Below, one piece after another: positions 11,636-32,636 of a stretch of DNA of 32,636 nucleotides. Source of the DNA: a virus; IMG/VR virus record IMGVR_UViG_3300028840_001200, positions 1 through 32,636 of that record; one strand, written 5' to 3'. The position numbers and the translations under genes were made by a program. Each line of letters begins with the position of its first letter. Positions within the stretch are counted from its first letter, which is position 1. The notes under the pieces were generated by a model that worked only from the letters and a program-made list of their open reading frames with translations, had not been told where the DNA came from and ran no database searches.

Positions 11636-14196
11636 ATAAATTTTTCGACCAATACTATAAAAATATCCCTAAAGTAACTAAAATATATGACAAAGTTTGT
11701 ATAGATATTGAAACAGGTGAAGTTACTGAGGAAAGTTTTGAAGAATATGTTGGGGAGATTGCACAAGCAGGTGGTTGGGAAGGTTTCATCTTTGCAATTA
11801 TTCTATCATTAATTTCTGCATATCTTACATATCAACAAATGGATGATGTAGATGATACTCCAGAGATTGAAGGTCCTGGTCATAAAGCAAACACAAGAAC
11901 AACTGAAGCACCTTTACCTGTTGTATATGGAACAAGAAAAGTAGGTACAAATGATGTTTATGCTTGGACTGGTGGATATCATAGTAAAAAGTTGAAGATT
12001 GTTTCTACGTTATCTGAAGGTGAATGTGAAGGTATCTATGAAGAAGATGGTGTACCTCAAATATTTATAGACAAAGATATATATACAAAAGTTGGAAATA
12101 CTTTTGATTATACCTTCTATTCAGGTACAGATTCTCAAACATTCGATACAGATGTTAATGATGTTGATCCTAATTATACTGAAAATATGCGTCATACTTG
12201 CTATATAGTGTGGAATTTTACTTGGGATGAAGATATTTATAGAGGTTTACCTGAAAGACAACTTATCTTACAAGGAAAGAAGCTGTATGATTTTAGAACA
12301 TCAACAACTGCTTGGTCAGACAATCCTGTTGTAGCACTATATGATTTTCTTACAGATGATATTTATGGAATAGGGATAAGTTCTGATGATTTAGATATAA
12401 CCTCATTTACAGCAGCAGCTAACTATTGTGATACAAAAGAATTTTACATTGATATGGTAATGAAACCAACAAGGGATGAAGGTTCGTGGAGATTTGTTGA
12501 GCAGATATTGCATTGTTTCCGTGGTATGTTAAACTACTTTGATGGAAAATACTATCTACGTTATAAAGATTTAAATGAAGAATCACCTGTCGTTACAATT
12601 ACAGATGATATGATTGTTCAAGATGAGTCAGGTAGAGCACAGATACGTTTGATGAAACCTTCAAGTGTTGATAAACCTACGTCTTTAACTGTAGAATTTG
12701 AAGATAAAACAAAAAATTATGAAAAGAATTACATTCCACTTGGAGAGTTTGGTGGTCTTGGAAAAGACTATAGATTGAATGGAGTTACAAACTATGCTCA
12801 AGCAAGAATTTTAGGTATAACACATCTTGAAAGATTGAATCTAAACAGAACAATTATCGGTTCATTTAGAGATGATGCCCTATTGGTGGAACCAGGTGAT
12901 ATTGTTACATTAAACAGTACAGCACTTGCTATTTCAGATCAACTAATGAGAGTTAATCAAACTGTTATAAATCCTAATGGAACAGTATCATTGAATTTAC
13001 GTTTTGAATCATATGATCTTTACGATGATGATTATGATGAAAGTATAGAAGATATATATAATGTTGATCTGACAGATCCAAGTGAGGTATCTTCAATTGA
13101 GAATCCATCAATTGAAGAAGAAGTCTACTATTACAGAGGAAGAACATTCATCAGATTGAATATATCTTTTAATGTTCCAGATGATGAAGCATGGTTAGAT
13201 CACGTTAATGTGTGGGTCTCAACTGACGAACAAGCAACGTGGAATAAACAGTTTAATGTCCCAGCACGTTCTGGTGATACAGTAGATTTTTCAATTGATC
13301 CTGTTGAAGAAGGACAACGATATTTTATTGTGTTACAGACTGTTAATATGTGGAGAGTTACACAAGACTTTGATCAAGCTACAAAAATTGATAAAACAAT
13401 ACTTGGGAAGAGTGCTATTCCACCAGAAAGTTTGGAATATTTATCTGCTGTCCCGGGTGATAACTCCTTGATATTGATATCTGATAAATTAAATGATCCT
13501 GATATTGAAGTTTATGAATTTAGATTTGGACCTCAATGGATTGGTGGTGTATATATGGGATCATATAGAAGTCCTAATCTAACAATTAAAGGGATCAAAC
13601 CTGGATTCTTTGAATTTACAGCAAACACTCTTGGGACAAATGGTTTGTATGGACAAATTCCAAGATATGCATCAGCAAGAGTTCCACTTCCAAAAGGATA
13701 CACATATTTCAATACCTATACACACGATCCTTCAACTGGATCATTCAACAATACCCAAGCAGTTACATATAACGGTGAAAAATATGTTAAATGTAGTCAT
13801 AGCGGTGGGAATCTAACAGGTACATTTCATTCTAAAACTGTTGATATTGGTGCTTCAAATATAAATTCATATTTCATCTACATAGATACTGAGATAGTTG
13901 TAACAGGTCTTGGTACAACTTGGAATGAGATTGTACCTATACCAATGACGTGGAACGAACTTCAAGCATCAACAAATCAATGGGTAAAAATATTCGATAT
14001 TGATGTTGCTCCTGGAGTAGCTATGGAAATACAATATAAAGAGTATAGTTCTGATCCTTGGGGCGCTATCCAAAAAGCAGAATTTATCTCAGCTGTAATA
14101 ACGACACGATATATAAGATCAAAAATAATCATAACTGACCCAAGCGATGAGGTCAATGCTTTGGTAAAACAACCTAGCATAGTTCTATATAAATAG
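11632..14196 (+). CDS. Central tail tip / host attachment protein (gpI-gpJ-like)
   Basis: The 854-residue protein combines an N-terminal gpI-like hydrophobic helix (GFIFAIILSLISAYLTY, about residues 47-63) with a J-type tip protein. The segment TEAPLPVVYGTRKVG, the long domain around YDFLTDDIYGIGISSDDL and the strand VEPGDIVTLNS are typical of phage J and gp13-like baseplate hubs. Fibronectin-like domains follow from about residue 500. It caps the tail and probably starts receptor contact. It overlaps the K-like gene by ATGA. Confidence 0.88.
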   Translation: MNKFFDQYYKNIPKVTKIYDKVCIDIETGEVTEESFEEYVGEIAQAGGWEGFIFAIILSLISAYLTYQQMDDVDDTPEIEGPGHKANTRTTEAPLPVVYGTRKVGTNDVYAWTGGYHSKKLKIVSTLSEGECEGIYEEDGVPQIFIDKDIYTKVGNTFDYTFYSGTDSQTFDTDVNDVDPNYTENMRHTCYIVWNFTWDEDIYRGLPERQLILQGKKLYDFRTSTTAWSDNPVVALYDFLTDDIYGIGISSDDLDITSFTAAANYCDTKEFYIDMVMKPTRDEGSWRFVEQILHCFRGMLNYFDGKYYLRYKDLNEESPVVTITDDMIVQDESGRAQIRLMKPSSVDKPTSLTVEFEDKTKNYEKNYIPLGEFGGLGKDYRLNGVTNYAQARILGITHLERLNLNRTIIGSFRDDALLVEPGDIVTLNSTALAISDQLMRVNQTVINPNGTVSLNLRFESYDLYDDDYDESIEDIYNVDLTDPSEVSSIENPSIEEEVYYYRGRTFIRLNISFNVPDDEAWLDHVNVWVSTDEQATWNKQFNVPARSGDTVDFSIDPVEEGQRYFIVLQTVNMWRVTQDFDQATKIDKTILGKSAIPPESLEYLSAVPGDNSLILISDKLNDPDIEVYEFRFGPQWIGGVYMGSYRSPNLTIKGIKPGFFEFTANTLGTNGLYGQIPRYASARVPLPKGYTYFNTYTHDPSTGSFNNTQAVTYNGEKYVKCSHSGGNLTGTFHSKTVDIGASNINSYFIYIDTEIVVTGLGTTWNEIVPIPMTWNELQASTNQWVKIFDIDVAPGVAMEIQYKEYSSDPWGAIQKAEFISAVITTRYIRSKIIITDPSDEVNALVKQPSIVLYK

Positions 14197-14207: not shown

Positions 14208-14915
14208 ATGGGACAAACGTGGGTATCAAATACATATCAAGGTGATCATACAGCTCAAACAGACTTGCAAAATATGGAAACAAATTTTGCTACCTTGAAG
14301 TCTACATTTTCAGGTACGTCTTCACCATCCAATGCAGAGGCTGGTATGCTTTGGTTTGATACAAATAAAAAATTGTTAAAGGTACGAAATCAAGCTAATT
14401 CTGCTTGGGATGGTGTTATGGCAGGAACAAAAGCACAGAGTAAAGTCTGGTTCTGGTCTAATGTAGCTGAAGATGGCTGGGTTGTTGATTCATCTACAAC
14501 TGATAGGGTATTAGCTGTTAAGGGTGGTAGTAATGCCTACAACGTGTCTGGTGGCTCGAATGCTGGTACTTGGACTCAACCTAATCACACACATACGATC
14601 TCTGCATCATCTGCTGGTGCTCACGTTCATAAGATACGAGAATCAGGTAATTCAAGTGATCAGGTTTATAATTCTAGTGGATCATTGGTAAATGTTAATT
14701 ATTCATCAAAGAATTCTGGTTATGGTGTTGCGTCAAATAGATATGTATCAGGAAGTGGAAAAGATCCAGCTGTATCTAGAAAATATGATAATAAAGATTG
14801 GTATTCACAAAGTAAAGGAGCACATACACATACAGGTACTGCTGCTTCTAATGCTACAGCTAATACATATAGACCAGCTGCTGCTGTCGGAACCATCCAA
14901 TATATGAATGTGTAA
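14208..14915 (+). CDS. Tail fibre/collar-like protein with HxH motifs
   Basis: The 235-residue protein has an N-terminal fibre attachment part (SNAEAGMLWFDTNKKLLKVR, common in phage fibres). Its C-terminal half is rich in Gly, Ser and His, with HTHTISASSAGAHVH and GAHTHTG. HxH pairs in trimeric phage fibre tips are known to bind iron. The end, TYRPAAAVGTIQYM, is shared by many collar/receptor-binding proteins. SD AGGAG precedes the ATG. It is the first gene of the adhesin block. Confidence 0.75.
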   Translation: MGQTWVSNTYQGDHTAQTDLQNMETNFATLKSTFSGTSSPSNAEAGMLWFDTNKKLLKVRNQANSAWDGVMAGTKAQSKVWFWSNVAEDGWVVDSSTTDRVLAVKGGSNAYNVSGGSNAGTWTQPNHTHTISASSAGAHVHKIRESGNSSDQVYNSSGSLVNVNYSSKNSGYGVASNRYVSGSGKDPAVSRKYDNKDWYSQSKGAHTHTGTAASNATANTYRPAAAVGTIQYMNV

Positions 14916-14925
14916 AGGAGTAAAG

Positions 14926-15420
14926 ATGTATTCAATTAAATTGATTGAAGTTAATAGAGGAATGATAGATGAAATTCATAATCTTTACTATCATTATTTC
15001 AATCCTGAAAAAGCAACTGTAATGGCTGAATCAATAGATAACAAATATATGACACACGCTTGTGTCTGTTTATATAAAGATAAAATTGTTGGTTGTATGG
15101 GTATAAATAGTGCAGGTAAAGGTGTTTATAATTTTATGTCTATTGTTACATCTAAACACCATCGTAGAAAAGGAATAGCATATGCAATAATTCAACTGGC
15201 AGTTAAATATCTATTTGAACTTGGAGCAACAAAAATAGTTAATCATAAACGTGAAAATGTCATTAAACATCAAATATTTACAGATATGGGATTTAAATTG
15301 ATAAATCATAAACCTAATGCTTCAACTGGATATTTATATACATATGGTCTAAGTCGTCAAGAAGCAGACTTTAAAAAACTTGAAAGAATATGGGGCAATA
15401 TTGATGTTAAGCAAAAATGA
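14926..15420 (+). CDS. GNAT-family N-acetyltransferase
   Basis: The 164-residue protein shows the GNAT fold pattern. The strand VGCMGINSAGKGVYNFMSIV leads to the acetyl-CoA binding loop HHRRKGIAYAII (Arg/Lys-x-Gly-x-Ala), then a helix, then VIKHQIFTDMGFKL, where GNAT enzymes carry their last conserved helix. It would move an acetyl group from acetyl-CoA to an amine; the target is not known. The ATG at 14926 has SD AAAGGAG and is preferred over the in-frame ATG at 14908. An enzyme inside a tail fibre block is notable; it may modify a virion adhesin or a host component. Confidence 0.82.
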   Translation: MYSIKLIEVNRGMIDEIHNLYYHYFNPEKATVMAESIDNKYMTHACVCLYKDKIVGCMGINSAGKGVYNFMSIVTSKHHRRKGIAYAIIQLAVKYLFELGATKIVNHKRENVIKHQIFTDMGFKLINHKPNASTGYLYTYGLSRQEADFKKLERIWGNIDVKQK

Positions 15421-25286: not shown

Positions 25287-25661
25287 TTATATACATTTTC
25301 CATTGACTATATCATCCTGTTCTTTTTGCCATTTTTCCATATCTGTTTGAAATTTAAAACGCCAATTCACCCAATATGGTTTTCCAGTACATCCTTTAGC
25401 TGGGCAAACTTCTAATAATTTATCTGTGATTATACAGCATCCACACAGACCACATTCAAGAAAAGATTTATTTTTGTAGTTTTCATATATTGGTTTATAT
25501 AAAGAATGATCTTGTATTTGACGTTCTATAAGTTTTTCATCATCTGTTATCAATTCATCAATGATTGGATCTGACCCAGATAATTTCTCAAGAACATCTT
25601 TATCAAGAAAAGATTTTTCTTCATCTATTTCTTCAATGATTGGATTTTCCATCTTAATCAT
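25287..25661 (-). CDS. Small protein with Cys cluster, last early gene
   Basis: I do not recognise this 124-residue protein. It has an acidic N-terminal half, then a cysteine cluster (CGLCGCCII, then CPAKGC about 18 residues later) that could bind zinc, then KPYWVNWRFKFQTDMEKWQ. I chose the ATG at 25661 because GGAGAG lies just upstream and the start overlaps the lipoprotein stop in ATGATTAA. An in-frame ATG at 25772 would give a tail of residues that is only the shadow of the lipoprotein gene. Its stop lies 2 bp from the stop of the convergent late operon. Confidence 0.62.
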   Translation of the reverse strand: MIKMENPIIEEIDEEKSFLDKDVLEKLSGSDPIIDELITDDEKLIERQIQDHSLYKPIYENYKNKSFLECGLCGCCIITDKLLEVCPAKGCTGKPYWVNWRFKFQTDMEKWQKEQDDIVNGKCI

Positions 25662-25821
25662 CACATTCTCTCCAGCAAGTTGTTCCGGTGAATTTACCAA
25701 CACTATCATAATGTCTGACACATTTATATTCACACCCTTTTCTATCTCTATCACTTTTTTGTGGTATAGCACATCCTGTTAAGAAAGCAATTAACAGGAT
25801 GCACATAATCATTCTAAACAT
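25654..25821 (-). CDS. 55-residue Cys-rich lipoprotein
   Basis: The reading frame encodes a lipoprotein signal, MFRMIMCILLIAFLTGC, with the lipobox Leu-Thr-Gly-Cys (lipidated Cys at residue 17). A short basic and acidic linker and a domain with four more cysteines (RKGCEYKC, then TTCWREC) follow. AGGAG lies about 10 bp before the ATG, and the gene sits 3 bp after the previous stop. It should be anchored in a membrane, probably the outer one. Small phage lipoproteins include outer spanins (Rz1) and superinfection-exclusion proteins such as T5 Llp. The early location and lack of Pro-rich sequence favour exclusion, but this is inferred. Confidence 0.75.
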   Translation of the reverse strand: MFRMIMCILLIAFLTGCAIPQKSDRDRKGCEYKCVRHYDSVGKFTGTTCWRECDD

Positions 25822-25824
25822 AAT

Positions 25825-26538
25825 TTACTCTTCTCCTCTATTCTCTCTGCTTCTTATTCGATAGTATTCATTTCTTGGATATTTCTTTCCACGTCTGTTT
25901 ACTTGTGCTTTAGTGTAATTATGTCTAAATACTAAACATTCCTTTTCATTATCATTATGTAAATATAACATTGTCTGGCGTTTCTTTTCTTTTACTTCTG
26001 GTCTGTTTTGTGCTTCTTTCATTGCTTCAGACATCATCTGTCTATATTCAACAGTACCTCTTTGTTCCTTAAACTTCTTTGAAAGATCATCGTGAAATTT
26101 TGGACATTCTTTCAATTTTGGAGAACAAGATAAACGTTGTCCAAAAAGAAGATATTTTGCCTTTTCTCCACATTTTTCACATTTATATGGATGATCCCCT
26201 CCTTTTTGTAATATAGAACGTATCTTTTGATTCTCTATTTGTTTTGTTGTTAATTCATTATTTGGATCTTTTCTGCGTTTCATCAATAAATATTTAAATG
26301 TTTCACAATGTCTGTAATGTTTTGATTGTAATCTATAATAGATTTTCTGCCCTTCTGTACTTTTATATACATCCTTACATAACTCACAAGTTTCTAAATG
26401 TTTAATTATTTCTTTAAGTCCATCGCAGAAATTATATCCTTTAAAACACACATAAGCATTAAACATCCCGCTATGTGCTGTTACTTTATTACTACAGAAA
26501 CGGCATATTCCTCTGTCTTTAGTCGTATTTGGCCCCAT
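25825..26538 (-). CDS. Multi-zinc-finger protein with NUMOD-like helices
   Basis: The 237-residue protein carries three CxxC pairs (CRFC at about 12, CELC at about 51, CEKC at about 117) and further Cys/His pairs (HLETCELC, HYRHCETF), consistent with several zinc-binding fingers. Residues about 165-195 (VEYRQMMSEAMKEAQNRPEV) resemble NUMOD3-type helices that bind DNA in phage homing endonucleases. No HNH or GIY-YIG nuclease core is visible, so it is a probable nucleic-acid-binding protein rather than a proven nuclease. SD GAGAGGG precedes the start, which overlaps the end of the 44-residue gene by 20 bp. Confidence 0.65.
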   Translation of the reverse strand: MGPNTTKDRGICRFCSNKVTAHSGMFNAYVCFKGYNFCDGLKEIIKHLETCELCKDVYKSTEGQKIYYRLQSKHYRHCETFKYLLMKRRKDPNNELTTKQIENQKIRSILQKGGDHPYKCEKCGEKAKYLLFGQRLSCSPKLKECPKFHDDLSKKFKEQRGTVEYRQMMSEAMKEAQNRPEVKEKKRQTMLYLHNDNEKECLVFRHNYTKAQVNRRGKKYPRNEYYRIRSRENRGEE

Positions 26539-26653
26539 AATAATTATCCCTCTCTTGATAGTATTTCATCTGGGCATCTAATTCTTCATCTTCATCCCAA
26601 ATATCATTGTTTATTTCTTTTTTATTTTCATTCTCTTTATTTTTTTCTGACAT
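26519..26653 (-). CDS. 44-residue charged protein
   Basis: A very strong SD (AGGAGG, 8 bp spacing) starts this short frame, MSEKNKENENKKEINNDIWD and so on, ending TAA at 26519-26521. The product is very hydrophilic, first basic/Asn-rich then acidic, with aromatic residues at the end (MKYYQERDNYYGAKYD). Its end overlaps the next start, which suggests translational coupling. No family is recognised. Confidence 0.7.
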   Translation of the reverse strand: MSEKNKENENKKEINNDIWDEDEELDAQMKYYQERDNYYGAKYD

Positions 26654-26665
26654 TACAATATCCTC

Positions 26666-27082
26666 CTAGAATTTAATTGTTGAAAAATCAAACATTTGCT
26701 TTTTGTTACTGGCAGATGTATTCCTTGTTTCTGTCATTGTCAATACGCCAGTTGCTTTCGGAACTTCTTTTGGTGGTTCTGCAGTCTTTCTCAAGTCCAT
26801 ATTCGTATCAAAATCAGATGTATGTTTATAAAGATCTTTGATTAAATATAGAAGTGATTCGTGAGGGCACTTTTGCAATGCTTCAATAAGAGCGAATTCT
26901 TTTGTTGCTGGCAGATATTGAATCCATCTTTTGAATGGCCCACATTGCCTGATACGTTTTATTTCTCTTTCAACATATTCCATAGGACGTCCTGTCATTC
27001 TTGTAATTCCAGCTACTGTGATTGGTCCGTTTGCGATTTGTAGTGCTTTTACTACGTCTCCGAATAATGTTCTTTCTGTCAT
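26666..27082 (-). CDS. Probable winged-helix regulatory protein
   Basis: The first 60 residues of this 138-residue protein look like a winged helix-turn-helix: FGDVVKALQIANGPITVAGI, then TGRPMEYVEREIKRI, where the second helix would read DNA. The rest is polar with a low-complexity linker. SD AGGAGG lies 9 bp before the ATG, and a promoter-like element (27109-27147) lies just upstream, so it may be made on its own as well as from the operon. A role as early regulator is inferred. Confidence 0.6.
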   Translation of the reverse strand: MTERTLFGDVVKALQIANGPITVAGITRMTGRPMEYVEREIKRIRQCGPFKRWIQYLPATKEFALIEALQKCPHESLLYLIKDLYKHTSDFDTNMDLRKTAEPPKEVPKATGVLTMTETRNTSASNKKQMFDFSTIKF

Positions 27083-27108
27083 GCTTCTATCCTCCTGTGT
27101 AAAATTTG

Positions 27109-27147
27109 ATATTATATATTTGTTCTAAAAGATTTAGAAGTTGTCCC
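27109..27147 (-). promoter_or_regulatory. Early promoter-like element A
   Basis: On the minus strand it reads GGGACAACTTCTAAATC, then TTTT, then AGAACAAATATATAATATC. It shares GACAAC, TTC-T-AATCTTT and AGAACAAAT with elements B (28728-28769), C (30606-30646) and D (28585-28621). It fills the gap between the dpdA-like gene and the 138-residue gene, and TATAAT lies about 30 bp before that gene's ATG. Confidence 0.6.
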
Positions 27148-27155
27148 ATTAATAA

Positions 27156-28451
27156 TTAGAGTTTAAGCAAAGAATCCGTCTGAAATAATGCAGTAGCATT
27201 TTGTTTCAGAAGCATTTCTACACGATTTAGATTTTTATCTCTCATAATATCCAAGAATTTAATAAGATTTACAGTATCATTCCTCAAATTCTTAGTTAAT
27301 TTACCTCCGTTTAATCTTTGTAGAAAATCAATACATTTATTATAGAATAATTCTGTTTCTCCATTTAGATAATATCTAAGTATTCCGGAAACTTTCTTGT
27401 TAATAATTTCTTGTATTTCCTTATAAACTAAAAGATCATACATCGTCATAAGCACATAACAATCCATATTTTGTTTTCCATTGTCTTGATAAATACTGTT
27501 TGCGTGAACAGAAAATCCGTTTTCATCTGCAAATTTATTTAACTTATCTAAGATATACGTTTCTAATGTTTTACCCATAAAGTTGGATTTCAAATGTTTT
27601 GAAAAATACGTCAATTTATGTATTGTTTCGTTTTCTAATGCCATAAATACCCTGGCACGTGCTAATTTCTGATGGGGACAGGAATCACTTTGAATGTTAA
27701 ACGATATTTGGTATTCATCTTTGATAAACTCCTTCACAAGAGCGAATAAGAACGTTAGAACGGTACTCGCTTGACCAGCACCTAAGAAATGGATATCAAT
27801 TTCCTTCATATTGTATTGTAAACACTTCTCCAGATACGTCTTAAACGGCACACTATACGATATAATTCTATTCATATTACCATATTGTTTGATAGCAATT
27901 CCACCAACTCCAAACATATTGAATTTGTCGTGATATTGATCAAACAACTCTGTCCAAATTCTATATGATTGGATGTTTAACATATGAAACACAAATATAT
28001 TTTTATCATCATTCATATCAGCAGCAATCTTATATGTCTTTTGATTCCATTGTCTAACATCATCCCAATTCTTAAAACAGAAATCGTTTGGCGGTAAATC
28101 AAGTACAAACGCCCTATCATATCTATCTGGATTGTTTTTAAGATAGTCATAATAGACCTCAGATAATTTCTCAACGTCTTCTATTGAATATTTCCCAAGA
28201 AGAACTTGAAATCCTCCTGAATCAATATATAAAGGGATTGTCTTTGTATATATCTCAAGTTTATCTAAAGAATGATCTACTCTTTTATTGAATGTTTGCA
28301 TCTGTTTCGTATTAGATACGTCTTCAGCTACACAATGTAAAAGTCCAAGAGTATTTTTTTCGAGAAAGGATACTTCTTCTTGAATGTTGACATTTGAATT
28401 TTTGTGATGTCCGATATAACTTAGAGGTGATGCAGGTATGTAATTGTTCAT
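27156..28451 (-). CDS. dpdA: Transglycosylase of the TGT/DpdA superfamily (candidate 7-deazaguanine DNA modification)
   Basis: The 431-residue protein carries the signature motifs of tRNA-guanine transglycosylases and their DNA-acting relatives (DpdA), in order: LYIDSGGFQV (74-83, with the Asp that acts as general acid/base in TGT), LDLPPND (117-123), FGVGGIAI (180-187; TGT has GIGGL), IHFLGAG (220-226; TGT has HxLG) and QSDSCPHQKLARARV (254-268; Asp256 is the candidate nucleophile). The CxCxxC zinc motif of bacterial TGT is not seen, and the C-terminal 130 residues are distinct. DpdA enzymes swap guanine for preQ0-type bases in DNA, which hides phage DNA from restriction. No preQ0 synthesis genes are present, so the host would supply the base. 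The ATG at 28451 has SD CAGGGAG. Confidence 0.75.
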   Translation of the reverse strand: MNNYIPASPLSYIGHHKNSNVNIQEEVSFLEKNTLGLLHCVAEDVSNTKQMQTFNKRVDHSLDKLEIYTKTIPLYIDSGGFQVLLGKYSIEDVEKLSEVYYDYLKNNPDRYDRAFVLDLPPNDFCFKNWDDVRQWNQKTYKIAADMNDDKNIFVFHMLNIQSYRIWTELFDQYHDKFNMFGVGGIAIKQYGNMNRIISYSVPFKTYLEKCLQYNMKEIDIHFLGAGQASTVLTFLFALVKEFIKDEYQISFNIQSDSCPHQKLARARVFMALENETIHKLTYFSKHLKSNFMGKTLETYILDKLNKFADENGFSVHANSIYQDNGKQNMDCYVLMTMYDLLVYKEIQEIINKKVSGILRYYLNGETELFYNKCIDFLQRLNGGKLTKNLRNDTVNLIKFLDIMRDKNLNRVEMLLKQNATALFQTDSLLKL

Positions 28452-28496
28452 TTTTAATCTCCCTGTGTGTGTTTTTATCTTCCTGAGTAAGTAGGT

Positions 28497-28534
28497 TCTG
28501 GGTGGTCCAGGGCATGACTCCAAGACCACCCAGA
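28497..28534 (-). promoter_or_regulatory. Leader hairpin of dpdA-like gene, 16-nt loop with anti-SD
   Basis: TCTGGGTGGTC and GACCACCCAGA form a perfect 11-bp stem with a 16-nt loop (28508-28523). In the minus-strand RNA the loop ends in GCCCUG, and its CCCUG can pair with CAGGG in the SD (28461-28465). The hairpin lies 46 bp before the ATG. It has the same design as hairpins at 30471-30512 and 30809-30854. Confidence 0.6.
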
Positions 28535-28555
28535 TTACACAGGAAAATATCGTTA

Positions 28556-28585
28556 ATAAAATCTAGTAGAGGGAATAGATTTTAT
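28556..28585. terminator. AT-rich dyad, weak bidirectional terminator or operator
   Basis: ATAAAATCTA and TAGATTTTAT form a perfect 10-bp inverted repeat with a 10-nt loop, just inside the region transcribed toward the dpdA-like gene and beside promoter-like element D. It has few G-C pairs, so a protein binding site (operator) is as likely as a terminator. Confidence 0.4.
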
Positions 28586-28621
28586 AGTATTAATTTGTTC
28601 TTAATTGTGTTGGTAATTGTC
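28585..28621 (-). promoter_or_regulatory. Early promoter-like element D (dpdA-like gene)
   Basis: On the minus strand it reads GACAAT, 14 bases, AGAACAAATTAATACTATA. The spacing between GACAA(C/T) and AGAACA is 14 bases, as in elements B and C. The sequence is more diverged than the other copies. It starts directly after the stop of the 26-residue gene and would drive the dpdA-like gene with a leader of roughly 120 nt. Confidence 0.45.
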
Positions 28622-28702
28622 TTAGTCTTTCATAATCCAGAAATATCCGCGCCACAAGACCAAGATTGCTAAAACATACATTGATAGCTCCAAGATTAAC
28701 AT
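28622..28702 (-). CDS. 26-residue membrane peptide
   Basis: An excellent SD (GGGAGG, 8 bp spacing) starts MLILELSMYVLAILVLWRGY and a short tail FWIMKD. Most of it is one hydrophobic helix, so it should sit in the inner membrane. It lies behind promoter-like element B. An overlapping 62-codon frame starting with TTG is less likely, because it has no SD and begins inside the promoter element. Phage membrane peptides of this size often act on host membrane enzymes; the target is unknown. Confidence 0.6.
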   Translation of the reverse strand: MLILELSMYVLAILVLWRGYFWIMKD

Positions 28703-28727
28703 TTATTTTTCCTCCCGTGTGATATTT

Positions 28728-28769
28728 GATGTTTAATAGTTTGTTCTCCAAAGATAGGGAAGTTGTCGC
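28728..28769 (-). promoter_or_regulatory. Early promoter-like element B
   Basis: On the minus strand it reads GCGACAACTTCCCTATC, then TTTGG, then AGAACAAACTATTAAACATC. It matches element C (AGAACAAATATTTAAACATC) at 17 of the last 20 bases and shares the 15-base core GAACAAACTATTAAA with the plus-strand element at 18604-18621. It lies in the gap between the 125-residue gene and the 26-residue gene. Confidence 0.6.
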
Positions 28770-28784
28770 AGTTTTCAACTGAAA

Positions 28785-29162
28785 TCAATTCCGCGCATCT
28801 GTTGTAGTGTTTCCTTTGATATTATCTAGACATCTTTTACAAACTTCAAACTTGAAATTCTCGTTGTCTAATTTGAATATTTCACTTGTCCTTTCGTTAC
28901 ATATGTGACATCTTTTGAGATTAGGATCTACAATTCCACGTTTCTTATGTCCTCTTTTGAAGATTCTTTCTTCTGGAATTGGTTTTTCACTAATCATATA
29001 TCCTCCACAACCACATTGACATTTCTTAATGTTGATATCAATCCCAAGACCTTGATGATAACCTTTGATTCTACAATATTCTGAGCAATATTTCTTACCT
29101 CCAGTTGAAGATCTTTTAATAACTGTATTACAAACAACACAGATAAATCCAGTTGAATCCAT
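28785..29162 (-). CDS. Treble-clef zinc-finger protein
   Basis: The 125-residue protein is built from three probable zinc sites: CVVC plus YCSEYC (residues 8-30), KCQCGCGG plus the following RGH (48-71), and CHIC plus VCKRC (86-112). The first looks like a treble clef of the HNH/recombinase type, and the CQCGCGG...FKRGHKKRG part is also found in phage homing endonucleases. The His-Asn-His catalytic core is absent. A nucleic-acid-binding role is likely, but the exact function is unknown. SD AAGGAG lies 7 bp before the ATG. Confidence 0.68.
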   Translation of the reverse strand: MDSTGFICVVCNTVIKRSSTGGKKYCSEYCRIKGYHQGLGIDINIKKCQCGCGGYMISEKPIPEERIFKRGHKKRGIVDPNLKRCHICNERTSEIFKLDNENFKFEVCKRCLDNIKGNTTTDARN

Positions 29163-29398
29163 TTGAATCTCCTTTTCTAATAGTTAGACTGTTGTGGGAA
29201 TTTTTTCTTTTTTAACTCGCGCTTGCCGACGAGTTCAAAAACTACAAAAAAAAATATCCACCACATAGCAAGATTTAAAATCTAATTGAATAATCCAAAT
29301 CTTAAAGTTATATCTTAAATGCTAATATTTTTAAATGTTCTAATAAATAGAATAATAACTTTTAATATATTGTATATAGTATTAGCTTGCTTACGGAA
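29163..29398. other. AT-rich non-coding stretch, possible origin or operator region
   Basis: This 236-bp gap has no supported gene. It holds an extended dyad (AACTCG 29214-29219 with CGAGTT 29230-29235, flanked by T and A runs), a 13-bp palindrome AGATTTAAAATCT (29271-29283), two copies of ATCTTAAA 13 bp apart (29299 and 29312), and a TGTTCT half-site (29336-29341) as in the early promoter elements. Repeats plus very high AT content would suit a replication origin or the control region of the 125-residue gene. This is inferred. Confidence 0.4.
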
Positions 29399-30133
29399 CT
29401 AGACTCGCTTTTTAACACGAAGGCGTACTACATTATCAATTTTTCGTTCATTTTCACAATCATTAAATAATTTATTTAACATCTTTAATGTAGAATCTTT
29501 CTTAAGACCAGACTGTAAATACATCATCCATTTAGATTTTATGCGTTTCTTTTCAATATTTACATCAGAAATTAACTTCGTTAACAAATCTTGATGAACA
29601 CGATAGTTTCTAACTGTTGCATTTACAGCATACCAATATTTGTTATTCTTATACAATTTGACGAAATTATAATATGCAGCAACAATTCTATGTGGATGTT
29701 TTTCGAAATACTCTAAAAGATGATATTCAACGAAACTCTCATATGTGTATTTTCTTAATATAGTTAAGATAGAATCTGTTTTTGGATCATAAACAGAAAT
29801 AGGTACTTCAACTTTTAATACAGGTTCATATGGTTTTACCCAATATGGATTAACAAGATACATCATATTGCCATTTTCATCTTGTTTTGATATTGAATAC
29901 CATTTATTTTTTTCAATTCTAAACTCCACCATCATATTCAGATGTAATTTCTTTTTAACTCCATTTAAAAAAATAACTCTTCCAACTTCTTTATGGTTTT
30001 CATTTTTGATAGTAGGATTACATTCAATTCCAACAATCTTACCAAGTTCTCGATTCGCATATAAATTATGATGTGATTCCTCGGGTATATATTTCAAGAC
30101 AAGATCTTTTATCATTCCATCGTTATTTATCAT
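29399..30133 (-). CDS. Unknown early protein
   Basis: I do not recognise this 244-residue protein. It has a beta-rich N-terminal half (GRVIFLNGVKKKLHLNMMVE, YLVNPYWVKPYEP), then a helical and strongly basic C-terminal part (KKRIKSKWMMYLQSGLKKDS, ending VVRLRVKKRV) that could bind nucleic acid. No membrane helix or cysteine cluster is seen. SD GGAGG lies 8 bp before the ATG, and the start overlaps the previous stop (ATGA). As the largest unassigned early protein beside the AT-rich gap it is a candidate replication or take-over factor, without direct evidence. Confidence 0.65.
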   Translation of the reverse strand: MINNDGMIKDLVLKYIPEESHHNLYANRELGKIVGIECNPTIKNENHKEVGRVIFLNGVKKKLHLNMMVEFRIEKNKWYSISKQDENGNMMYLVNPYWVKPYEPVLKVEVPISVYDPKTDSILTILRKYTYESFVEYHLLEYFEKHPHRIVAAYYNFVKLYKNNKYWYAVNATVRNYRVHQDLLTKLISDVNIEKKRIKSKWMMYLQSGLKKDSTLKMLNKLFNDCENERKIDNVVRLRVKKRV

Positions 30134-30426
30134 AGCATTATATCCTCCTCAAAATTAAACATAACATTTTTGTTATCTACTTTAGTAGAATTATCCATAT
30201 TCTCCTCAACAGCAAATATTTTATAGTAAAATAATGCATGGACTTCATATGGTATGTTAAGAGTTGAAATTATATCTTCCTCACTATAATAGACGATATC
30301 TTGAAATCCAACTGAAATCGCACCAGATGTACCTATTGATATAATTTTACCCCTGAATGTATTTTTGGTTTTTGAGATAGGTTTGATTAGGACGGAACTT
30401 GCTGTGGCTTTGATTTGATTTGGCAT
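30130..30426 (-). CDS. Possible GroES-like co-chaperonin, first early gene
   Basis: The first 75 residues of this 98-residue protein follow the GroES beta-barrel pattern: SSVLIKPISKT at the N-terminus, then GKIISIGTSG (GroES has G-x-V-x-x-V-G), then SVGFQDIVYYSEED (GroES has G-D-x-V), and a final strand YKIFAVEEN (GroES ends with I-x-A-x-x-E). The length is also that of GroES. The usual mobile-loop region is short. If right, it would help fold phage capsid with host GroEL, as T4 gp31 does. The match is by eye and not certain. The gene sits behind a long structured leader. Confidence 0.45.
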   Translation of the reverse strand: MPNQIKATASSVLIKPISKTKNTFRGKIISIGTSGAISVGFQDIVYYSEEDIISTLNIPYEVHALFYYKIFAVEENMDNSTKVDNKNVMFNFEEDIML

Positions 30427-30605
30427 AAAATTCTCCTTTGTTGTTAAATTCCTTTGTTGTGTTAGAATATGATGGGAGTGAGTACAACAAAGGAAGAAGA
30501 CTCACTCCCATCTTTAAACTTGTACGGCCAATACAAGTTGTTATTTTATTTGTTCTCAGTTACTCTAATTGAGAACATATCAAACTTTCAATAATATCTC
30601 CATTT
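30427..30605 (-). promoter_or_regulatory. Structured leader of the first early operon
   Basis: Between element C and the 98-residue gene the minus-strand RNA would form three hairpins in a row: a TGTTCT/AGAACA dyad (30551-30561 with 30567-30577), an 8-bp stem (30517-30524 with 30532-30539) and a perfect 13-bp stem (30471-30483 with 30500-30512). The 16-nt loop of the last contains UUCCUUUGUUGU. This is complementary for 12 nt to ACAACAAAGGAA (30449-30460) and for 11 nt to ACAACAAAGGA (30434-30444), which contains the SD. Pairing would hide the ribosome site. Confidence 0.65.
30471..30512. repeat. Perfect 13-bp inverted repeat with 16-nt loop
   Basis: GATGGGAGTGAGT (30471-30483) and ACTCACTCCCATC (30500-30512) are exact reverse complements. 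The loop 30484-30499 contains ACAACAAAGGAA on the plus strand, the inverse of two direct copies of TCCTTTGTTGT at 30434-30444 and 30450-30460. The set can be read as an RNA switch or as origin iterons. Confidence 0.9.
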
Positions 30606-31550: not shown

Positions 31551-32636
31551 ATGGATTTAAACATAGACCTCCAAGGATTAATCAATTTGATAATGTCCCA
31601 CTTCTGGGCATTGTTAAAAGATAAAAATAGATTCTTAGTAATGAGGGGTGGTGCTGGTTCTGGTAAATCTGTTTTCTGTGTCCTAAAGATCATTATTCGT
31701 ATTCTGATAGGATACAAGACAGGAACAACACATAATGTCCTTGTGATTATGAAAACCGCGTCTTCGATGAATGACACGGTTATAGCAGAGTTTAAAAGAT
31801 GGTTGAACAAGTTTAATATCCTTGGAACAATATGTACAGAAAAGAAAATGCCAGCAGAGTTTTTATTCTCTAATGGCTCAAGAATATTTTTTAAAGGGTG
31901 TGATGATCCAGACAAACTCTTATCAATATCTGGAGTTACATCAATATGGATTGAAGAAGCATCAAGAATAACTCTAAATGATTTTGAAATAATCAATACA
32001 AGATTAAGAGGTGTGGATTTAACATATCCACAGATAATGCTTTCATTCAACCCTGTGTCTAAATTATGTTGGTTGTATGATTATTTCTATGTAAACGACA
32101 AAGAAAATACAACATTACATCTATCGTTATTGAAAGATAATTATTTAATCAATGATCCAGAGTATGTAAAACAAATAGAAGGTTTCAAAGATACAAATAT
32201 AAATAAATATAAAACATACTGGTTAGGTGAATGGGGTTCATTAGAGGGTGTCATCTATGAAAACTATGATATTCAACCTACAATACCAGAAAATGTTAGT
32301 GAAATTATTTATGGTCTAGACTTTGGATTCAACGCACCAACCTCCTTAGTTAGAATCAATAACTCTGATGATCAATTCTATATTGAAGAGTTGTTATATC
32401 AAAGCAAGCTAACAAACACAGATTTAATAAAGAAGTTAGGTAATTTAATCCCAGAAGAACACAAAAACAATTGCTATATATATGCTGATACTGCAGAACC
32501 AGCACGTATTGAAGAAATATATCAAGCAGGTTATAATATACATCCATCAGAAAAGAACGTGCGTGATGGTATAGATTATGTTAAATCAAAGAAATTAACA
32601 ATACATACAGACTCTTACAATATGATTAAAGAGATT
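31551..32636 (+). CDS. terL: Terminase large subunit, N-terminal 362 residues (continues at base 1 side)
   Basis: The ATPase half has the Walker A motif RGGAGSGKS (residues 32-40) and the Walker B motif SIWIEE (131-136). The coupling-type segment SFNPVS (165-170) follows. The nuclease half starts with YGLDFGF (Asp257), and YADTAEP (Asp313) is the second acidic ligand. The frame is open at the window end and, once the 49-bp overlap is removed, continues in bases 1-196 to a 410-residue protein. It drives DNA into the prohead and cuts it. The sequence type is that of the PBSX/Terminase_3 group. Confidence 0.97.
   Translation, partial: MDLNIDLQGLINLIMSHFWALLKDKNRFLVMRGGAGSGKSVFCVLKIIIRILIGYKTGTTHNVLVIMKTASSMNDTVIAEFKRWLNKFNILGTICTEKKMPAEFLFSNGSRIFFKGCDDPDKLLSISGVTSIWIEEASRITLNDFEIINTRLRGVDLTYPQIMLSFNPVSKLCWLYDYFYVNDKENTTLHLSLLKDNYLINDPEYVKQIEGFKDTNINKYKTYWLGEWGSLEGVIYENYDIQPTIPENVSEIIYGLDFGFNAPTSLVRINNSDDQFYIEELLYQSKLTNTDLIKKLGNLIPEEHKNNCYIYADTAEPARIEEIYQAGYNIHPSEKNVRDGIDYVKSKKLTIHTDSYNMIKEI
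32588..32636. repeat. Terminal direct repeat, right copy
   Basis: This stretch is identical to bases 1-49 and marks the overlap where the circular genome was opened. Confidence 0.95.

Follow-up and report, generated by a model that had tools for sequence, protein, structure and literature searches.

Can a phage with a genome of about 32.6 kb modify its DNA using a single enzyme and a base made by its host? The question is raised by a 431-aa open reading frame on the minus strand of the window, meaning here the whole 32,636-nucleotide stretch of DNA that was analysed. A sequence-only reading had described the product as a DpdA-like transglycosylase in a phage without preQ0 synthesis genes, preceded by its own promoter-like element and a leader hairpin. 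The frame is a real gene, complement(27156..28451), with an ATG at 28451 and a ribosome-binding site, and the following features mark it and its leader.

27156 to 28451, minus strand: gene for a TGT/DpdA-like base-exchange enzyme of 431 aa (open reading frame, profile matches, motifs, fold and relatives)
28459 to 28464, minus strand: AGGGAG ribosome-binding site, predicted to lie inside a leader helix
28497 to 28534, minus strand: leader hairpin with an 11-bp perfect stem and a 16-nt loop (fold z -6.4)
28575 to 28601, minus strand: promoter-like AGAACAAA element (consensus only; weaker copy of the motif upstream of other early genes)

Both the promoter-like element and the hairpin are thus present, but neither is special to the enzyme gene, because both recur elsewhere: AGAACAAA-type promoter-like elements also lie upstream of other early genes, and the leader of a 98-aa gene carries a strong hairpin (30425-30520, fold z -5.6) resembling that of the TGT-like gene. 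The leader gave no credible Rfam riboswitch match. Just upstream of it, on the minus strand, lies a possible gene for a 26-aa membrane peptide (28620-28705, MLILELSMYVLAILVLWRGYFWIMKD).

The enzyme gene sits in a minus-strand region of ~5 kb (25287-30426) composed mostly of genes with no known role. Two related phages (L017 and L019) have records that cover the terS side. In both, ~0.2-0.8 kb separates terS from the counterpart of the 237-aa gene, and the 4 kb that hold the enzyme gene in the window are missing there, which makes this stretch look like cargo. The enzyme gene was found in none of 20 records of related phages, most of them fragments. In another related phage (L036), a lone QueC-like gene at 13606-14178 directly follows the tail-tip gene, a slot that in the window is occupied by a GNAT acetyltransferase gene (14908-15420).

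The encoded protein is an enzyme of the TGT superfamily, as judged from profile, motifs and fold. The motifs named in the sequence-only reading, IDSGGFQV (D77), FGVGGI (G183/G184), HFLGAG (H221, G224) and QSDS (D256), are all present in the order given there, and with them the two catalytic aspartates and base-binding motifs that define the superfamily (D77, D118, GG183-184, H221-G224 and D256, in order). In an alignment of the protein with 33 IMG/VR DpdAs, D77, Y100, D118, H156, H221 and G224 are invariant across the 34 sequences and the catalytic Asp is retained as D256, with 35 residues between H221 and D256. The PHROG 887 profile, which represents the DpdA family of phage 9g (9g DpdA itself matches at E 2e-98), matches residues 68-228 only, with an E of 1.1e-8. 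With an HMM of 87 phage DpdAs the protein scored 19.5 bits, against 14.6 for the best of 1,000 shuffles and 138 bits for the DpdA of phage 7-11. The second half of the protein lies outside the DpdA profile match, and its sequence support comes from the motifs, the fold and the relatives described below.

An AlphaFold model from the single sequence was unusable, while a model computed from the alignment with the 33 IMG/VR DpdAs reached a mean pLDDT of 65 and a pTM of 0.65; because its alignment rows were DpdAs, this model is not fully independent of the sequence comparison. When it was compared with the PDB, the top 50 aligned entries were all TGTs (Z 16.9-18.2, 286-316 residues, rmsd 3.9-4.5), none falling outside the TGT fold, and Foldseek alone ranked other TIM barrels beside TGT. 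The HMM and structure comparison that had been proposed as a check therefore came out in favour of the assignment. The zinc site (CxCxxC...H) is absent from the protein, whose cysteines lie at positions 40, 125, 210, 258, 331 and 373. The earlier remark on this point was accurate, but the property is shared with all the phage DpdAs compared, and since CxCxxC occurs in 0 of the 87, its absence is usual for the group.

Whether the missing pathway genes carry meaning depends on the completeness of the genome, which is settled by the ends of the window.

1 to 49, no strand: left copy of an exact 49-bp terminal repeat (genome complete)
32588 to 32636, no strand: right copy of the repeat, an exact match to 1 to 49

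The terL frame at 31551-32636 leaves the right end and resumes in frame at 2-196, and the uncut terL of a relative (L013) matches the window terL across the join. A mere fragment is ruled out by this repeat together with the continuous terL: the window is a complete phage genome of ~32,587 bp, which gives meaning to the lack of pathway genes. Six-frame HMM searches of this genome for FolE, QueD, QueC and the transporter YhhQ were empty, as the sequence-only reading had anticipated for the preQ0 genes, and the same searches found FolE and QueD in phage 9g. No further pathway enzymes were found among the predicted window proteins scanned, which included a normal siphovirus structural set. Genes for replication, integration and a repressor were not recognisable in the complete genome.

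The enzyme most likely exchanges guanine in the phage DNA for a host-made 7-deazaguanine, giving partial protection from restriction, and we hold this reading with reasonable though far from full confidence; we infer DNA as the substrate, the identity of the base, its supply by the host and the protective effect. TGTs act by covalent attack of a catalytic Asp, with guanine exchanged for a 7-deazaguanine. By analogy with this mechanism, D256 would attack C1' of the nucleotide, and guanine would leave with the assistance of D77, to be replaced by a deazaguanine that D118 and the GG loop hold. Because the phage encodes no base-making enzymes, it would obtain preQ0, preQ1 or another intermediate from the queuosine pathway of the host or by uptake, and the modified phage DNA would be partly protected from host restriction. 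A search for the host by portal alignment in GTDB genomes gave no match. The base-modification reading is supported by other DNA-modification genes in related phages, namely an NPPY-type DNA methyltransferase in L017 (PHROG 799, 4e-5) and, in L019, a gene resembling QueC (Pfam QueC 37 bits; PHROG 1550, 2e-19).

Precedent exists for both the chemistry and the genetic arrangement. Phage DpdA inserts preQ0 into DNA and thereby protects it, and 9g-type DpdA, DpdA2 and lone DpdAs have all been described (PMC6884629). The lone-DpdA phages resemble the window phage in having a DpdA-type gene without preQ0 genes (PMC6884629), but they carry 9g-type enzymes, whereas the window protein belongs to a separate family. 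In the two lone-DpdA phages tested, dADG made up ~0.02% of G in 7-11 and was not found in Orion (PMC6884629), results that warn against over-reading.

The same fold could instead serve a TGT-like enzyme that places a queuosine-type base in host or phage tRNA and alters translation during infection. The TGT fold of the model and the TGT-like letters DSGGFQ agree with such an activity, and the QueE and QueD neighbours of the relatives (see below) are compatible with either substrate. However, neither the Pfam nor the NCBIfam TGT models match the protein, the zinc site is lacking, the closest profile is that of the DNA-acting DpdA family, and no tRNA genes are present in the window genome, so that we regard action on tRNA as unlikely.

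With DNA as the favoured substrate, the position of the enzyme among the DpdAs can be considered. It shares with 9g-type DpdA the superfamily, the residues D77, Y100, D118, H156, H221 and G224, the lack of a zinc motif and the match to PHROG 887 (E 1.1e-8), but identity is only ~11-21%, the 9g type has DSGAFS and a short spacing to the catalytic Asp where the window protein has DSGGFQ and a longer stretch, and the C-terminal part of the window protein is longer. Phage 9g also encodes the base pathway, in contrast to the window phage. Many phage DpdAs (L041-L120, 9g L003, R5C L126, Me-ZS1 L008) end in a QxLF/QxxLF-like tail (QVSLF in R5C), which resembles a sliding-clamp-binding motif. LF or LW occurs within the last 12 residues of 42 of 64 distinct DpdA tails, compared with 9.4 in shuffled tails, and dpdA adjoins a clamp gene in 9g and Me-ZS1; the window protein has no canonical clamp-type tail motif.

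The DpdA2 comparison used ORF390 of Vibrio phage nt-1 and its relatives, the 464-aa ORF390 being assigned here as the nt-1 reference from its location between folE and exsB/queC; the reported lack of His at position 196 in DpdA2 (PMC6884629) was not used as a criterion. A divergent DpdA2 enzyme as defined in Hutinet 2019 would account for the common DSGG(F/L)Q and HxLGxG motifs, the long stretch before the catalytic Asp with its matching spacing, and the similar length (403-464 aa). Identity to DpdA2 is nevertheless 18-21%, a DpdA2 profile (from 3 sequences only) scored the window protein at 8.3 bits, only just above the top-scoring shuffle (7.9), and the HMM of the new family introduced below gives DpdA2 10-13 bits compared with 222 bits for the window protein. 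The nt-1 enzyme also has QueD, FolE and QueC genes beside it, which the window phage lacks. Membership of DpdA2 thus appears rather improbable. Neither the 9g-type nor the DpdA2 profile picks up the other type, and by sequence comparison the window protein is not a 9g-type DpdA, nor does it clearly belong to DpdA2. The DpdA-like label of the earlier reading survives in that HMM and fold support it, but the protein is not a standard DpdA and belongs to a separate family barely visible to the DpdA and DpdA2 profiles.

This family is newly found here, many lone phage DpdAs being already known. With the window protein as query, tblastn against phage and plasmid records gave no match at E up to 10, scanning IMG/VR and the GTDB genomes with the single sequence returned one spurious tape-measure match and nothing else, and the exact IDSGGFQV DNA pattern had no match in IMG/VR. 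Patterns derived from an alignment of the protein with three DpdA2s overturned the notion of an orphan, yielding 14 IMG/VR loci (L132-L145) that encode 11 distinct proteins 424-614 aa long. The seven best-matching ones are 26-32% identical to the window protein over nearly its full length, and four further relatives match over part of it. An HMM of the 11 relatives, with the window protein left out, matches the window protein at E 8e-67. D77-SGGFQ-82, L117-D118, G183-G184, H221, L223-G224 and D256-S257 are kept in 12/12 family members, the relatives thus carrying all catalytic motifs of the window protein, and position H156 is His in 8 and Gln in 4.

The gene neighbours of the relatives appear to tie the family to 7-deazaguanine chemistry, as context evidence. 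A QueE-like gene lies within 6 kb in 8/11 relatives by tblastn (L133, L134, L136, L137, L141, L143, L144 and L145); all five of those scanned match PHROG 2076 'QueE-like' (1e-26 to 1e-32), and in L136 the last codon of the QueE-like gene is separated by 15 bp from the enzyme gene that follows. QueD is found near the enzyme gene in L142, and L133 encodes a 557-aa protein (741-2411) whose N-terminus is amidotransferase-like (MCGI) and whose C-terminal domain is QueC-like, so that a QueE, QueD or QueC-like gene is present within 6 kb in 9/11 relatives. The 557-aa protein resembles Gat-QueC and is encoded near both a relative of the window enzyme and a QueE-like gene. The relatives are mostly on larger contigs (17.8-277 kb) than the 32.6-kb window genome, and the window phage has retained the enzyme alone, without the pathway genes found near them.

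QueE produces 7-carboxy-7-deazaguanine. Because it is QueE that recurs beside these enzymes, and a QueC-like domain was verified within 6 kb of just one relative, the base may be other than preQ0. We tentatively propose, at slightly less than even confidence, a third phage DpdA-like subfamily, apart from DpdA and DpdA2, that occurs in large environmental phages beside QueE and that in this very small phage would act alone on a host-made base. Retention, after pathway loss, of a TGT-fold protein that is a relict or has been retooled and does not exchange bases (e.g., a regulator or base-removing enzyme) would fit the absence of supply genes and of the gene itself from related phage records, but is very improbable given the open frame with its ribosome site and the retention of every catalytic residue over long divergence.

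The combination of a complete 32.6-kb genome, a single intact enzyme and a family found elsewhere beside base-making genes means that one gene is enough to test the idea of a 'borrowed base'. The proposed third subfamily, if true, would mean that more phages with possibly modified guanine exist than current profiles detect.
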